From Defluviicoccus sp. (GTDB lineage Bacteria > Pseudomonadota > Alphaproteobacteria > MPNO01): a stretch of 36,763 nt of DNA. Position numbers and translations under genes: made by a program. The first letter of the stretch is position 1. The number at the start of each line of letters is the position of its first letter. Of the stretch, positions 2,694 to 10,111 are shown one piece after another. The notes below the pieces were generated by a model. That model did not search any database. It worked only from the letters and a program-made list of their open reading frames with translations, and was not told the DNA's origin. Where the stretch lies: the NCBI GenBank assembly GCA_022823775.1, contig JAJEHI010000012.1:1-36763 (forward strand). Reading direction: 5' to 3'.

Positions 2694-4589
2694 GTGAGCG
2701 AGCGCTACGACGAAATCTACCGCCGTTCCATAGACGACCCGGAGGGCTTCTGGGCCGAAGCCGCCGCGGCGATCGACTGGCACCGAAGCTGGGACCGCGT
2801 GATCGACGACGGGGCGCAGCCGGCGGCGCGCTGGTTCGCGGGCGGCATGCTGAACACCTGCCACAACGCGCTCGACCGCCATGTCGAGGCGGGGATCGGC
2901 GACCGGACGGCGCTGATCTACGACAGCCCGGTCACCGGCGCGCAACGGCGCTTCACCTACGCCGGGCTCCGGGACCGCGTGGCGCGGTTTGCGGGCGCCC
3001 TCGCGGCGCGCGGCGTGGGCCGCGGCGACCGGGTGGTGATCTACATGCCGATGGTGCCCGAAGCGGCGATCGCGATGCTGGCCTGCGCCAGGATAGGCGC
3101 GGTCCATTCGGTCGTCTTCGGCGGGTTCGCGGCCAACGAGCTCGCCGTCAGGATCGACGATTCGACGCCCAGGGCGATCGTCGCCGGCTCCTGCGGGATC
3201 GAGCCCGGCCGGGTCGTCCGCTACAAGCCGCTCCTCGACCAGGCGATCGAGACCGCCCGCCACAAGCCCGATTTCTGCGTCATCCTGCAGCGCGAGGCCG
3301 AACCCGCCGAGCTGGTTCCCGGACGCGACGTCGACTGGGACGAGGCCGTCGCGGCCGCCTCGCCGGTCGACTGCGTCCCGGTGGCGGCGACCGATCCGCT
3401 CTACATCCTCTACACGTCCGGCACCACCGGCCAGCCCAAGGGGATCGTGCGCGACAACGGCGGGCATGCCGTCGCCCTCAATTGGTCGATGCCCAACATC
3501 TACGACATCGCGCCGGGCGAGGTCTTCTGGGCCGCCTCCGATGTCGGCTGGGTGGTGGGGCACTCCTATATCGTCTACGCGCCGCTGCTGAACGGATCGA
3601 CCAGCATCCTGTTCGAGGGGAAGCCCATCGGCACGCCCGACGCGGGCGTCTACTGGCGCGTGATCGCCGAGCACGGCGTCAAGGCGCTGTTCACCGCGCC
3701 CACCGCCTTCCGCGCGATCAAGAAGGAAGACCCCGACTGCGCGCTGCGCGCGGACTACGACATGTCGGGCTTCGAGACCTTGTTTCTCGCCGGCGAGCGG
3801 GCCGACCCCGACACCGTCAAGTGGGCCGAGGACCATCTAGGCGTGCCGGTGATCGACCATTGGTGGCAGACCGAGACCGGATGGCCGATCGCCGCCAACT
3901 GCGTCGGCCTCGGGCGGGCGCCGGTCAAGCACGGCTCGCCGACCCGCGCCGTCCCCGGCTGGGATCTGCGGGTGCTCGACGAGGCGGGCAGGGAACGACC
4001 GGCGGGGGAGATCGGCGCGCTGGTCGCGCGTCTGCCCATGCCGCCCGGCTGCGCGCCGACGCTGTGGAATGCCGACGAACGTTTCCGCGAGGCCTATCTG
4101 ACCGAGTTCCCGGGTTGCTACGCGACCGCCGACGCCGGTTATATCGACGACGAAGGCTACGTGTTCGTGATGGCCCGGACCGACGACATCATCAACGTCG
4201 CCGGGCACCGGCTGTCGACCGGCGCGATGGAAGAGGTGCTCGCCGAGCATCCCGACGTCGCCGAGTGCGCGGTGATCGGCGTCGCCGACTCGCTCAAGGG
4301 CCAGGTTCCGTTCGGACTGCTGGTCCTCAAGGACGGGGTCGCGCGGGACACGGGCGCGATCGTCGACGAGGCGGTCGGCATGGTGCGCGGGCGGATCGGC
4401 CCGGTCGCCGCCTTCAAGTCGGCCTCGGTGGTGGCCCGCCTGCCCAAGACGCGGTCGGGCAAGATCCTGCGCGGCACGATGCGCCAGATCGCCGACGGCG
4501 AGGAGTGGAAAATGCCGGCGACCATCGAGGACCCGGCGGCCCTCGACGAGATCGCGGCGTCGCTGGGCGCGGCCGGCTACCCGAGCTGA
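2694..4589 (+). CDS. prpE: Propionate--CoA ligase (PrpE-type acyl-CoA synthetase)
   Basis: An adenylate-forming enzyme that activates propionate (and probably acetate) to the CoA thioester through an acyl-AMP. The 631 residues carry the full ANL set: P-loop YTSGTTGQPKG (about 239-249), the A5 region DHWWQTETGWPI (about 387-398), the hinge-region motif RTDDIINVAGHRLSTGAMEE (about 492-511) and the terminal lysine motif PKTRSGKILRG. The HRLSTGAMEE and WWQTETGWPI wording fits PrpE better than acetyl-CoA synthetase, and the length matches PrpE (about 630) rather than Acs (about 650). The start is GTG at 2694 behind AGGAGGAG at 2681-2688; the ATG at 2689 leads straight to a stop. The last 13 bases overlap the convergent trcR end. 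No prpBCD genes are nearby, so it probably acts as a stand-alone salvage enzyme. Confidence 0.92.
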   Translation: MSERYDEIYRRSIDDPEGFWAEAAAAIDWHRSWDRVIDDGAQPAARWFAGGMLNTCHNALDRHVEAGIGDRTALIYDSPVTGAQRRFTYAGLRDRVARFAGALAARGVGRGDRVVIYMPMVPEAAIAMLACARIGAVHSVVFGGFAANELAVRIDDSTPRAIVAGSCGIEPGRVVRYKPLLDQAIETARHKPDFCVILQREAEPAELVPGRDVDWDEAVAAASPVDCVPVAATDPLYILYTSGTTGQPKGIVRDNGGHAVALNWSMPNIYDIAPGEVFWAASDVGWVVGHSYIVYAPLLNGSTSILFEGKPIGTPDAGVYWRVIAEHGVKALFTAPTAFRAIKKEDPDCALRADYDMSGFETLFLAGERADPDTVKWAEDHLGVPVIDHWWQTETGWPIAANCVGLGRAPVKHGSPTRAVPGWDLRVLDEAGRERPAGEIGALVARLPMPPGCAPTLWNADERFREAYLTEFPGCYATADAGYIDDEGYVFVMARTDDIINVAGHRLSTGAMEEVLAEHPDVAECAVIGVADSLKGQVPFGLLVLKDGVARDTGAIVDEAVGMVRGRIGPVAAFKSASVVARLPKTRSGKILRGTMRQIADGEEWKMPATIEDPAALDEIAASLGAAGYPS

Positions 4590-5194
4590 GACTCGGGGTC
4601 CGGCGGCGGGTCGGGCTCGGTCCGCGCCAGCTGTTCCACGGGAAACACGTCGTCGCCTTCGTCCACCGGCTCGGGGACGTATCCCGCCTTTTCCAGCGCC
4701 GCGTCGAGATCGGCGCGGGTGCACAGCTCCAGCCCGACCGGCTCGCGCGGCTTGATGTTCGCCATGTTCCAGTGGGTGCGCTCGCGGATCGCGACGATGG
4801 TCGGCTTGGTGGTGCCGATCAGCTTGGAAATCTGGCCGTCCGAGAGGTCCGGGCAGTTGCGCACCAGCCAGGCGATCGCGTCCGGCTTGTCCTGGCGGCG
4901 GGCCACCGGGGTGTAGCGCGGGCCCTTGGTACGGGGCGACGGGCGGGGAATGTCCTGCACCGCCATCTCGAGGCGCGCCGCCGGATCGGCGCTGCACCGC
5001 TCGATCTCCTCGCGGGTGAGCTGGCCGTTGGAGATCGGATCGAATCCGATCATCCCGATCGCGACCTCCTCGTCGGCGATGCTCTGCACCTCGAGCTCGT
5101 GGAGGCCGCAGAACGCGGCGATCTGCTCGAAGGTGAGGGCGGTGTTCTCGATCAGCCACACCGCGGTGGCCTTGGGCATCAGGGGGTTGTCCAT
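4577..5194 (-). CDS. trcR: Cell-cycle transcriptional regulator TrcR (DUF1013)
   Basis: A 205-residue member of the alphaproteobacterial DUF1013 family, characterised as the cell-cycle regulator TrcR. It has two helix-turn-helix-like segments. The first (about residues 9-45, AVWLIENTALTFEQIAAFCG) resembles the family's N-terminal domain. The second (about 105-140, LSDGQISKLIGTTKPTIVAI) has the look of a recognition helix followed by RERTHWN. The C-terminal 50 residues are acidic and proline-rich. ATG at 5194 is the natural start. Its 3' end overlaps prpE by 13 bases tail to tail. The gene lies about 1.3 kb from the parS pair, compatible with an origin-proximal location. Family assignment is firm; the target genes in this organism are unknown. 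Confidence 0.85.
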   Translation of the reverse strand: MDNPLMPKATAVWLIENTALTFEQIAAFCGLHELEVQSIADEEVAIGMIGFDPISNGQLTREEIERCSADPAARLEMAVQDIPRPSPRTKGPRYTPVARRQDKPDAIAWLVRNCPDLSDGQISKLIGTTKPTIVAIRERTHWNMANIKPREPVGLELCTRADLDAALEKAGYVPEPVDEGDDVFPVEQLARTEPDPPPDPESQLG

Positions 5195-6324: not shown

Positions 6325-6510
6325 GTGGACGAAGAGGATCTGGCATTCCGGAAGGGGCCCGCGAAGCTGCGCGACCTCGACTCGCTCTCCATCGAGGAGC
6401 TCGAGGAGTACATCGACGAGCTCGAGGCGGAGATCCGCCGCGTCCGGGACGACATCGAGAAGAAACAGCGCCACCGCGCCGGCGTCGAGGGGCTGTTCAA
6501 GCGCGGCTAA
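6325..6510 (+). CDS. DUF1192 family mini-protein (61 aa)
   Basis: A 61-residue acidic coiled-coil protein of the alphaproteobacterial DUF1192 family. Its centre, LDSLSIEELEEYIDELEAEI (about residues 14-33), is the family signature, followed by the charged helix RRVRDDIEKKQRHRAG. The start is GTG at 6325 with AGGAGGG at 6310-6316; a longer open frame from 6094 is antisense to the oxidoreductase and not real. The function is not known. It is the third very small helical protein in the first 7 kb. The first parS site begins on the base after its stop codon, so its transcription runs directly into the ParB-binding region. Confidence 0.8.
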   Translation: MDEEDLAFRKGPAKLRDLDSLSIEELEEYIDELEAEIRRVRDDIEKKQRHRAGVEGLFKRG

Positions 6511-6526
6511 TGTTTCACGTGAAACA
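6511..6526. promoter_or_regulatory. parS: parS site 1 (ParB-binding centromere)
   Basis: TGTTTCACGTGAAACA is a perfect 16-base palindrome identical to the bacterial parS consensus bound by ParB/Spo0J during chromosome segregation. It starts directly after the DUF1192 stop codon. An identical site lies 37 bases downstream. Two exact copies of a 16-base palindrome so close together are not expected by chance in GC-rich DNA. Confidence 0.93.
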
Positions 6527-6527
6527 A

Positions 6528-6546
6528 AGGTCAGCATTCTTGACCT
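6528..6546. repeat. Inverted repeat centred between the two parS sites
   Basis: AGGTCA (6528-6533) and TGACCT (6541-6546) form a perfect inverted repeat around a seven-base centre. Together with the flanking parS sites they make one larger inverted repeat, 6511-6533 against 6541-6563, with a single mismatch in 23 positions. This suggests the two parS sites arose by an inverted duplication or are read as one symmetric unit. Confidence 0.8.
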
Positions 6547-6547
6547 A

Positions 6548-6563
6548 TGTTTCACGTGAAACA
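6548..6563. promoter_or_regulatory. parS: parS site 2 (ParB-binding centromere)
   Basis: A second exact TGTTTCACGTGAAACA palindrome. Centre-to-centre distance to site 1 is 37 bases, about three and a half helical turns, so ParB dimers on the two sites would face different sides of the helix. A low-GC stretch with a T-run follows at 6578-6585. Confidence 0.93.
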
Positions 6564-6604
6564 TTAGCGAGAAACGGTATTTTTTCCGTCCCCCGGGGAC
6601 GGAA

Positions 6605-7271
6605 CGACAGCCCGCTCGCGCCCCTGAACCCGGTCCTGAGAAGCGCGTGGCGGGGAAAACCGGCGGCCTGCTAACGGTTTGCGGCCCGGTCTTCGCATGA
6701 CGGTTCCGCGCGGCACGGAGTCATTAGTGCATCAAAACCAGAGACATCAAGATGCTCGAATGCCCTCTCCCGGCCCCTCCCGGAGGAAGGGGAGAGGCGC
6801 CGGAGAGGCCCGCCGCGCGGGAACGGTTGCGCGACAGGGACATTGCCCGCTCGCCGGCGGTTCCGGAGAAGCGCGCGGTCTGTCGTTCGCCCCGCTGTCG
6901 CCCCGGCACAAGTCCATTGCTGTCCGGTTTAGACTCAGGTGCCGACGCCGCCCCCCCCCGTCATGGCCGGACTCGTTCCGGCCATCCACGTCTCGCGGCA
7001 TCGCGGTACGAGCCGGGAGGGAACGAGGCAGCGGTCCCACGTGGATGCCCGGAACGAGTCCGGGCATGACGATACGGGGGCGGTGGCGGAGGACGTTCGC
7101 ACCGCCCGCGCGTGTCCCGATACGGTCGATGCGTCGGAAGGCCGCTTGAACCGACGGCTTGAACCCGACCCAGCCCGCTAAACCGGACAGCAGTGGCGCA
7201 AGGCCGGGGTGACAGGCTTGGGGGCCCGCCGCGGCGCGGGCTCCTCTTCGGCCACTGGCGAGAAATGCGCG
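6605..7271. other. Gene-free, repeat-rich stretch downstream of polA
   Basis: No convincing gene is present; the open frames here follow the palindromic repeats and lack ribosome sites and family motifs. The stretch holds an imperfect CCTCTCC/GGAGAGG hairpin (6764-6797) and a concentric set of inverted repeats (6896-7215). A further GCCCGC/GCGGGC stem lies at 7225-7242, just beyond the polA stop; on the minus strand it could act in polA transcript ending, although no T-run follows. Confidence 0.7.
6896..7215. repeat. Concentric (nested) inverted-repeat element, about 320 bases
   Basis: Three inverted-repeat pairs share one centre. The outer pair is TGTCGCCCCGGC (6896-6907) and GCCGGGGTGACA (7204-7215), with one mismatch. 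The middle pair is TGCTGTCCGGTTTAG (6918-6932) and CTAAACCGGACAGCA (7178-7192), perfect. The inner pair has 33-base arms, 6959-6991 and 7039-7071, with two mismatches. Each inner arm is itself a hairpin: TGGCCGGA/TCCGGCCA in one, TGCCCGGA/TCCGGGCA in the other. The two mismatches between arms are a compensatory pair that keeps each small hairpin intact. No open frame inside looks like a transposase, so it resembles a non-autonomous or REP-like mosaic element. Confidence 0.75.
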
Positions 7272-10040
7272 CTAATGCGCCTCGGCCCAGCTGCGGCCGC
7301 GGCCGGTTTCGACGGTGAGCGGCACGCTGAGATGGGCGGCGGTCTCCATGGTCCGGGCGACCAGCGCCGCGGTCTCGTCGAGTTCGCCGTCGGGGACCTC
7401 GAACAGCAGCTCGTCGTGCACCTGGAGCAGCATCCGGGCGCCGAGACCCGCGTCCGCGAGCGCGTCCGGCAGGCGTATCATGGCGCGCTTGATGATGTCG
7501 GCCGCCGCGCCCTGGAGCGGCGCGTTGATCGCGGCGCGCTCCGAGAAGTTGCGCCGCGCCGGGTTCTTGTCCGCGATCGCCGGGGTATGGCAGCGCCGCC
7601 CGAACGCCGTCGTCACGTAGCCGTTGGCCCGCGCGAAGGCCTTGGTGGTCTCCATGTAGTCCCGAATGCCGGGATAGTGCTCGAAATAGGCCTCGATATA
7701 GGCCCGCGCCTCGCTCTGCGGGATGCCGAGCTGGCGCCCGAGGCCGAACGGGCTGATGCCGTAGATGATCCCGAAATTGATCGCCTTGGCGCGGTTGCGC
7801 ACCGCCGGGTCCATCCCCTCCACCGGCAGCCCGAACACCTCGCCCGCCGTGCGTGCGTGGATGTCCGCGCCCTCGTGAAAGGCCTGCTTGAGCGCCTCGA
7901 TATCGGCGACATGGGCGAGCAGCCGCAGCTCGATCTGCGAATAGTCGGCCGACAGCAGCGTATGGCCCTTCTCGGCGACGAAGGCCTTGCGGATCTTGCG
8001 CCCGTCTTCGGTGCGGACCGGGATGTTCTGCAGATTGGGCTCGTTCGAGCTCAGCCGCCCGGTCGACGCGATCGCCTGTCCGAACGAGGTATGCACCCGC
8101 CCGGTCGCCGGATTGACCGCTTCGGCGAGCGCCTCGGTGTAGGTGCTCCGGAGCTTGGCGAGCTGGCGCCAGTCGAGGACCAGCCTGGGCAGGGTATGGC
8201 CCTGCGCGGCGAGCCCTTCGAGGATGTCCGCGCCGGTCCCGTAGGCGCCCTGCTTGGTCTTCCTGCCGCCTTCGAGCCCCATCTCCTCGAACAGCACCGA
8301 GCCGAGCTGCTTGGGCGAGCCGATGTTGAAGTCGTGCCCCGCCTCCCGGTAGATGTCCTCGGCGAGCGCCGCCCCTCTTTGCTCGAAGTCGCGCGAGAGC
8401 GCGCCCAGCACCGAACCGTCGACCTTGATTCCGGTGCGCTCCATGCCGGCGAGCACCGCGACCAGCGGGCGTTCCAGCGTCTCGTACACCGTCGCCATGC
8501 GGTCCGCGACCAGCCTCGGCTTGAGCAGGCGGTGGAGCCGCCCGGTCATGTCGGCGTCCTCCGCCGCGTAGTCGCGCGCCGCCTCCAGCGGCACCTCGGC
8601 GAAGGTGACCGCCTTCCTCCCCGAGCCGGCGACGTCGGAGAACTTGATGTTGGTGTGCCCGAAATGGAGCTTGCAGAGCTCGTCGAGCCCGTGCCCGTGC
8701 ATCCCGGCCTCGAGCACGTATGAGAGCAGCATCGTGTCGTCGACCGGCGACACGTCGATGCCGTAGCGCGCCAGCACCTCCATGTCGTACTTGATGTTGT
8801 GGCCGATCTTGAGGACGCCGGGATCCTCCAGGAGCGGCTTGAGGGCGGCGAGAGCGTCGGTAAGCGGGATCTGCCGCGGCGCGTCCTCCGGCCCGTCGAT
8901 CAGGTCGCCCGTCCCGCCGCCGGGCGCGACGTGGGCGAGCGGGACGTAGCAGGCCCGGCCGGGCTCCACGGAGAGCGAGACGCCCACGAGCTCGGCCCGC
9001 ATCGAATCGAGCGAGGTGGTTTCGGTGTCGACCGCGACCGCGCCCGCGCGCGTCGCCTCGGCGATCCATTGCGCGAGCTCCGCCGCGTCGTCCACCAGCG
9101 AATAGTCCGGCCCTTCCGCCTCCCGGTCCGGCGCGGCGGCGTCATCGCCGGTCGCGGCGAGGCCGACCGCGGTTCCGATCTGGGCCAGCATCGACTTGAA
9201 CCCGTGCTCGCGCAGGAACCCGCCGAGCGTCTCCGCGTCGGGCGGGACCGCGATCAGATCGTCGACCGCCTGCTCCACCGGCGCGTCGATCCTGAGCGTC
9301 ACCAGGTCGCGCGAGACCCGCGCCATGTCGGCGTTCTCGATCAGGTTCTGGCGCCGCTTGGGCTGCCTGATCTCCTCGGCCCGTTCGAGAAGCGTGTCGA
9401 GATCGCCGTAGGTCCGGATGAGCTCCGCCGCCGTCTTGATCCCGATCCCCGGCACGCCGGGGACGTTGTCGGTGGAATCGCCGGCGAGCGCCTGCACGTC
9501 GATCACGCTCTCCGGTCCGACGCCGAAGCGCTCGATCACCTCGTCGCGCCCGACGGTCAGGTTCTTGGCCGGATCCAGCATCGAGACGCCGTCGTTCACG
9601 AGCTGCATCAAATCCTTGTCGGACGACACGATCACCACCTCGTGGCCCTCCTCGCGGGCCATGCGGGCGAAGGTGGCGATCAAATCGTCGGCCTCGAAGC
9701 CGGGCAGCTCGATGCAGGGCACGTTGAAGGCGCGCGTCGCTTCCCGGATGAGGCCGAATTGCGGCACCAGCTCTTCCGGCGGATCGCTCCGGTTCGCCTT
9801 GTAGTCGGGATAGATGTCGTTGCGGAACGACACGCGCGAGCTGTCGAAGATCACCGCGAAGCGGCGCGTGCCGGCATCGCTCAACAGCTTCGCCAGCATC
9901 TTCGAGAAGCCGAACACCGCGTTGACCGGGACGCCTTCCGGGTTGGTCATCGGCGGCAGGCCGTAAAAGGCGCGGAAAATGTACCCCGACCCGTCGACCA
10001 GATAGACCGGTTCCGCGCCGTCCTGTCCGGTCTCCGCCAT
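7272..10040 (-). CDS. polA: DNA polymerase I
   Basis: Repair and Okazaki-fragment polymerase. From ATG at 10040 the product has 922 residues, normal for the family, with all three domains. The 5'-3' exonuclease starts VYLVDGSGYIFRAFYGLPPM near residues 11-30. The 3'-5' exonuclease has VAVDTETTSLD near 337-347, HNIKYDMEVL and AAEDADMTGRL, so its metal-binding acids are present and proofreading is probably active. The polymerase has DYSQIELRLLAH near 697-708, RAKAINFGIIYGISPFGLG near 747-765 (O-helix) and LLQVHDELLFEVP near 870-882. GGAGG about seven bases before the ATG supports this start; the longer open frame to 10463 reads through repeats. It is flanked on both sides by palindromic repeat regions. 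Confidence 0.97.
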   Translation of the reverse strand: MAETGQDGAEPVYLVDGSGYIFRAFYGLPPMTNPEGVPVNAVFGFSKMLAKLLSDAGTRRFAVIFDSSRVSFRNDIYPDYKANRSDPPEELVPQFGLIREATRAFNVPCIELPGFEADDLIATFARMAREEGHEVVIVSSDKDLMQLVNDGVSMLDPAKNLTVGRDEVIERFGVGPESVIDVQALAGDSTDNVPGVPGIGIKTAAELIRTYGDLDTLLERAEEIRQPKRRQNLIENADMARVSRDLVTLRIDAPVEQAVDDLIAVPPDAETLGGFLREHGFKSMLAQIGTAVGLAATGDDAAAPDREAEGPDYSLVDDAAELAQWIAEATRAGAVAVDTETTSLDSMRAELVGVSLSVEPGRACYVPLAHVAPGGGTGDLIDGPEDAPRQIPLTDALAALKPLLEDPGVLKIGHNIKYDMEVLARYGIDVSPVDDTMLLSYVLEAGMHGHGLDELCKLHFGHTNIKFSDVAGSGRKAVTFAEVPLEAARDYAAEDADMTGRLHRLLKPRLVADRMATVYETLERPLVAVLAGMERTGIKVDGSVLGALSRDFEQRGAALAEDIYREAGHDFNIGSPKQLGSVLFEEMGLEGGRKTKQGAYGTGADILEGLAAQGHTLPRLVLDWRQLAKLRSTYTEALAEAVNPATGRVHTSFGQAIASTGRLSSNEPNLQNIPVRTEDGRKIRKAFVAEKGHTLLSADYSQIELRLLAHVADIEALKQAFHEGADIHARTAGEVFGLPVEGMDPAVRNRAKAINFGIIYGISPFGLGRQLGIPQSEARAYIEAYFEHYPGIRDYMETTKAFARANGYVTTAFGRRCHTPAIADKNPARRNFSERAAINAPLQGAAADIIKRAMIRLPDALADAGLGARMLLQVHDELLFEVPDGELDETAALVARTMETAAHLSVPLTVETGRGRSWAEAH

Positions 10041-10111
10041 CTCGCCCTCCGTCCGCCCGGTCCGACGAAGGATGCTGAATGCGCCGGGCTTTGTCGAGCC
10101 GGGGCTATGCT

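Follow-up and report, generated by a model that had tools for sequence, protein, structure and literature searches.

Both parS sites and REP-like repeats are already known. REP sequences are multi-copy, palindromic and extragenic, and they often lie at the 3' ends of genes or between convergent genes. The locus described here touches on both subjects. It shares with the chromosomal ParABS systems of Caulobacter, Bacillus, Pseudomonas and Streptomyces the exact 16-bp parS consensus, canonical parA and parB genes, and a native cluster of sites by mnmG, rsmG and parAB. It differs from them in number, since three of the five genomes of the genus carry 35-52 exact sites while the highest count known, near the origin, is about 20-23 (PMC7333895), and in layout, since the sites come in pairs locked at 37 bp around a dedicated inner motif and most copies lie on a dispersed repeat. 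In Caulobacter, as here, several parS are found close together beside the parAB operon; yet Caulobacter has one cluster near the origin (PMC5815017, PMC4368675), whereas this genus has about 20 units, copies of which were gained and lost between species. Extra parS placed in mid-arm are harmful in Caulobacter (PMC5815017). Scattered targets of ParB have been described in Pseudomonas aeruginosa, where they are 7-base half sites (PMC10419367); the targets predicted here are also scattered over the genome, but they are full palindromes, paired, and carried on a repeat. Finally, the element resembles the REP and BIME sequences of enterobacteria and pseudomonads in being multi-copy, palindromic, extragenic and placed at gene 3' ends, and departs from them in that its palindromes are parS. 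In the open-access literature we found no report of a dispersed repeat with full parS pairs and a dedicated middle site.

Anatomy of the twin parS site and of a dispersed element

The window (the whole stretch of 36,763 nucleotides that was analysed) is contig C189 of a draft genome of 4.80 Mb, which is split into 198 contigs and has an estimated contamination of about 4.8%. Two exact copies of the 16-bp parS palindrome TGTTTCACGTGAAACA lie at 6511-6526 (parS1) and 6548-6563 (parS2), 37 bp apart from start to start and separated by a gap of 21 bp. Set against the reverse complement of 6541-6563, the sequence at 6511-6533 shows a single mismatch, which agrees with the 53-bp inverted repeat described in the first-pass annotation. 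The window holds three parS matches at up to three mismatches, against 0.02 expected from shuffled sequences. The TAA stop (6508-6510) of a DUF1192 gene (6325-6510, forward strand; PF06698, E 8e-17) directly abuts parS1, so that the unit sits between this gene and the convergent polA, encoding DNA polymerase I (7272-10100, reverse strand, start codon approximate; PF00476, E 2e-154). The gap is filled by the spacer AAGGTCAGCATTCTTGACCTA (6527-6547, forward strand), which forms the inner inverted repeat. To the right of 6563 the repeat unit runs on to about 6754. It comprises a linker TTAGCGAGAAACGGTATTTTTTCC (6564-6587, forward strand), a palindrome GTCCCCCGGGGAC (6588-6600) that serves as a marker of the element and occurs 21 times in the genome, and a tail (6601-6754, forward strand) common to a copy on contig C10. 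Two other features lie nearby. The gene of TrcR, an alphaproteobacterial cell-cycle regulator (PF06242), is found at 4577-5194 on the reverse strand, 1.3 kb from the twin-parS unit, and an inverted repeat around GGCCGGACTCGTTCCGGCC / CCCGGAACGAGTCCGGGC at 6961-7080 is another probable dispersed repeat. A search of the window against Rfam gave a tRNA as its sole match.

The genome as a whole contains 35 exact parS on 18 contigs, plus several with one mismatch. Most of them form pairs exactly 37 bp apart, a pair that occurs about 15 times, and there is one triplet. The four congeners have 23, 52, 22 and 35 exact sites, and in 22 further genomes from the family and order the count is 0-4; the five genomes of the genus are all fragmented drafts, including at least one MAG. 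Among the exact pairs of these five genomes with a spacer of 15-30 bp, 45 of 46 have exactly 21 bp. Hence the twin layout with its inner inverted repeat, to which the first-pass annotation had drawn attention, is a maintained architecture, but with about 20 units in the genome it is no lone marker of the origin. The sole exception to 37 bp in the genus is a locus of congener G003 (locus L019; L175 5248), in which two parS lie 33 bp apart and the inner motif is absent. A universal preference for 37 bp was considered and found no support: close parS pairs of unrelated bacteria are spread over 23-58 bp without such a lock, and arrays in a 1.8-Mb alphaproteobacterium of another family (G256) are spaced by 33-43 bp. 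These last are tandem arrays of up to eight sites with varied spacers on many contigs (C1, C2, C5, C7, C13; L295-L313), and they are a second, different case of parS proliferation. In the five congeners the bases flanking parS on its outer sides are also constrained (121/138 T, 105/138 T, R in 129/138, G in 106/138), giving an extended CYAA-parS-TTRG.

Around these sites we delimited an element with about 20 copies in the genome, built of palindromic modules and nearly always intergenic, as expected of an extragenic palindromic repeat of the REP or BIME kind. All 21 genomic occurrences of GTCCCC[C/G]GGGGAC (hereafter the G palindrome) belong to it; 20 of them lie within about 130 bp of a parS that is exact or has one mismatch, and the remaining one, on contig C187, is near a parS decayed at three positions. 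Copies of type A (14 loci) consist of the parS pair, linker, G palindrome and tail, and those of type B (six loci) of one parS, the inner motif, about 100 bp and the G palindrome. One subfamily of type A, subfamily 1, is about 265 bp long, with copies 80-92% identical and a right end formed by TGTCAAC-N4-GTTGACA. The copy in the window and the one on contig C10 (L007), which are 80% identical over 250 bp, are members of a second subfamily, and the linker of the window copy is the counterpart of TTGTCCCGATATGGGACTATTTTTCGC in subfamily 1. The parS side of type A copies faces a gene 3' end in at least 23 of the 32 scored, a count for which the gene caller missed short genes such as DUF1192. The right-end palindrome recurs about 200 bp to the right of parS2 at L008, L010, L011, L013-L017 and loci of G002; it resembles the inner spacer motif (GTCAAC..TGAC), and the same putative protein may be the ligand of both. 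Two type B copies at two contig ends, L006 (C4, 9376) and L022 (C179, 126), are 96.5% identical over 487 bp and are either a recent duplication or an assembly duplicate. In several places (L018, L164, L182; L020, L183) inverted pairs of units enclose 2-5 kb of genes, with their parS ends facing inward.

We therefore read the twin-parS block as the head of an extragenic element, dispersed and REP-like, that includes a copy of the host's own centromere unit, and would give this reading roughly two chances in three. By its sequence, the unit comprises two parS on either side of a 21-bp spacer whose inverted repeat is conserved and asymmetric; in the dispersed copies it is followed by a hairpin-like linker, the G palindrome and a tail, for about 250-265 bp overall.

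Descent, gain and loss of the copies

The window lacks parA and parB, as had been remarked from its sequence, and both were found in the same genome. They are adjacent on contig C103, and the domains of the second (ParB_N, E 3e-33; HTH_ParB, E 2e-30) are those of a canonical ParB. Upstream of mnmG lies a parS triplet without tail, and a single parS stands between mnmG and rsmG. One end of contig C103 matches the DNA adjoining the mnmG parS locus in a genome of another family, G185. In that family (G055, G185) one unit, which has the same inner motif, stands just before rsmG and beside parAB, and G185 has no further parS in the 1.2 Mb examined. Because the tail-less unit is found both at the native locus and in another family, the dispersed units most likely descend from the native centromere. 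The outward direction rests on parsimony: the unit would have begun as a chromosomal centromere, tail-less at mnmG-rsmG-parA-parB, and the dispersed copies probably derive from it by copying outward.

The comparison with congeners reveals copies of very different ages. At least 13 of the genome's own parS loci have a counterpart in the same position in G002 or G004, with about 90% identity. Four copies of subfamily 1 have congener loci that keep one or both flanking genes and contain neither parS nor the G palindrome. Several copies are thus old and common to species, several are specific to their own species, and some are decayed. At the window locus the unit is present in G002 and G004 (with parS1 kept in both), decayed in G003, where the G palindrome is intact, and lacking in G001; since the unit is decayed or absent in congeners, single copies must be dispensable. 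As read from these assemblies, parS sites undergo birth and death between species.

Such turnover might also be that of a selfish element. In this alternative the repeat is MITE-like, its palindromic ends serve a putative transposase or recombinase, the match to parS helps it to spread, and the loading of ParB is incidental or parasitic. The element-free loci of congeners, the species-specific copies of subfamily 1 and the common palindrome at the right end, about 200 bp from parS2, all suit this idea. However, the two ends are different palindromes, and the head occurs without a tail both at the native centromere and in another family, as expected if it descends from a centromere that works. 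Nor was a transposase found: a search for RAYT (Y1_Tnp, PF01797) had no match in the own genome, with matches in five of 14 controls, and we rejected RAYT as the spreading enzyme, a further departure from REP and BIME. Taken together, this makes a selfish element of this kind possible but rather unlikely. The intergenic DNA at element-free congener loci does not align, and target-site duplications are therefore not readable there. Other sources were considered and set aside, with no exact match in viral contigs for a phage and no plasmid match for a plasmid.

The spacer between the paired sites

The 49 oriented spacers from five species share the consensus WARGWCAGCAtkgTTGACCTA, i.e. WARGWCA-N6-TTGACCTA, of which the window spacer is a member. 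TTGACC and G.CA are invariant in all 49, and the centre is variable. In a genome scan allowing one mismatch the motif was found only beside parS, bar one weak, chance-like match. Conservation between orthologous copies follows the same pattern, with 95% identity in the spacer arms and 98% in the G palindrome, against 70% in the spacer core and 78% in the tail; the linker stands at 86%. The corresponding 99% for parS is biased, since congener loci were chosen for their exact parS pairs.

An inverted repeat of this kind could be conserved as a structure rather than as a binding site. The block would then be an RNA or DNA hairpin, a terminator or a 3'-end stabiliser, which contains parS by chance and in which selection acts on the stem and not on ParB. 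The 53 bases are indeed part of a longer, near-perfect stem (-58.7 kcal/mol for 111 nt, z -9.95), the element is located at gene 3' ends, and the linker of subfamily 1 resembles a short hairpin followed by a T-run. But a hairpin has no need for arms that are each the 16-bp parS, type B copies with a single parS retain the inner motif without the second parS, and a pattern scan gave no terminator on the forward strand at 6511-6563. The arms themselves tell the same story: no compensatory change between them was found in the 49 spacers, TTGACC never varies, the pair at positions 5-17 is A-A in 18 of 49, and the outer pair is mismatched in 42 of 49. Since the changes in the arms are uncompensated, an asymmetric site for a protein is a better reading of the inverted repeat than a stem. 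We rejected both hairpin-driven conservation and an intrinsic terminator, and consider a hairpin improbable as the explanation of the block. The middle motif would then be a candidate site for a second protein.

Chromosomal position and significance of the copies

The first-pass annotation proposed that the twin site places the window near the chromosome origin and that the main peak of ParB should be found there. Put more strongly, the pair would be a special, origin-proximal double parS, the main loading point of ParB, in which a palindrome of palindromes fixes the geometry of two clamps. The sites are indeed canonical and their 37-bp spacing is strict, and synteny with G002 suggests that contig C75, which carries dnaA, adjoins the window contig on its left by one end. 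Yet there are about 20 units and 35 exact parS, the native cluster is elsewhere, on other contigs beside mnmG and parAB, and G001 lacks the window copy itself, which in G003 is decayed. The annotation had reasoned that many copies far from the origin, or relatives lacking the sites together with no binding of ParB here, would speak against it; the genome-wide scan and the comparison with relatives went against it in part, the copies being many and the site being kept in only some of the congeners. Its use of the window copy as an origin marker was not borne out.

The loci were also mapped onto G185. We compared the element loci with 20 control stretches over the 1.2 Mb around the parS of that genome, where synteny between families is low and positions only a minority of the element loci; confident matches were obtained for five element loci and six control stretches, and in this weak test the former did not cluster closer to parS, i.e. 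there was no enrichment near the origin. Relative to the G185 parS, genes on the left side of the window unit fall at +346 to +354 kb and most of those on its right side at -245 to -283 kb, the two exceptions there being at -384 and +198 kb; dnaA maps at -148 kb. Neither the window genes nor dnaA would by this mapping place the window at the origin, and a broad origin domain is compatible with the positions. Contig C35, which lacks parS, carries genes that in G185 lie about 25 kb from the native site. That the window copy is the main peak of ParB is unlikely, and we regard a special double site at the origin as quite improbable. An artefact of draft assembly, through foreign contigs or collapsed repeats, is hardly credible: the genome is in 198 contigs with its share of estimated contamination and the copies on C4 and C179 are nearly identical (96.5%), but congeneric assemblies carry the element beside the same genes, and it is present in five assemblies in all.

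If the repeat does carry the host's centromere unit, its working can be sketched. ParB would be expected to bind at the window site and at the dispersed parS, as ParB-CTP clamps that load at each parS and slide outward. A second protein between the clamps would explain why the spacing is fixed at 37 bp (about 3.5 helical turns) and why TTGACC is invariant, and might separate the two clamps or direct them. The units would add capacity for the loading of ParB, and perhaps of SMC. Single copies would be redundant, so that the host could tolerate their gain and loss as long as total ParB-loading capacity stays high. We put forward only tentatively this fuller proposal, in which a three-part centromere unit, two ParB loading sites around one reserved for a second protein, has come to head a mobile extragenic repeat that spreads working centromere sites, with copies born and lost between species.

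The expansion of bacterial centromeres and the variation in parS number are stated open questions (PMC5815017, PMC7333895). The genus offers a natural series to address them, as the same loci are found with two, one, decayed or no parS, alongside species-specific gains. A further, specific proposal is a candidate protein that would bind TTGACC between two ParB loaders. On the reading favoured here, the element would illustrate in nature how the centromere sites of a bacterium can multiply.
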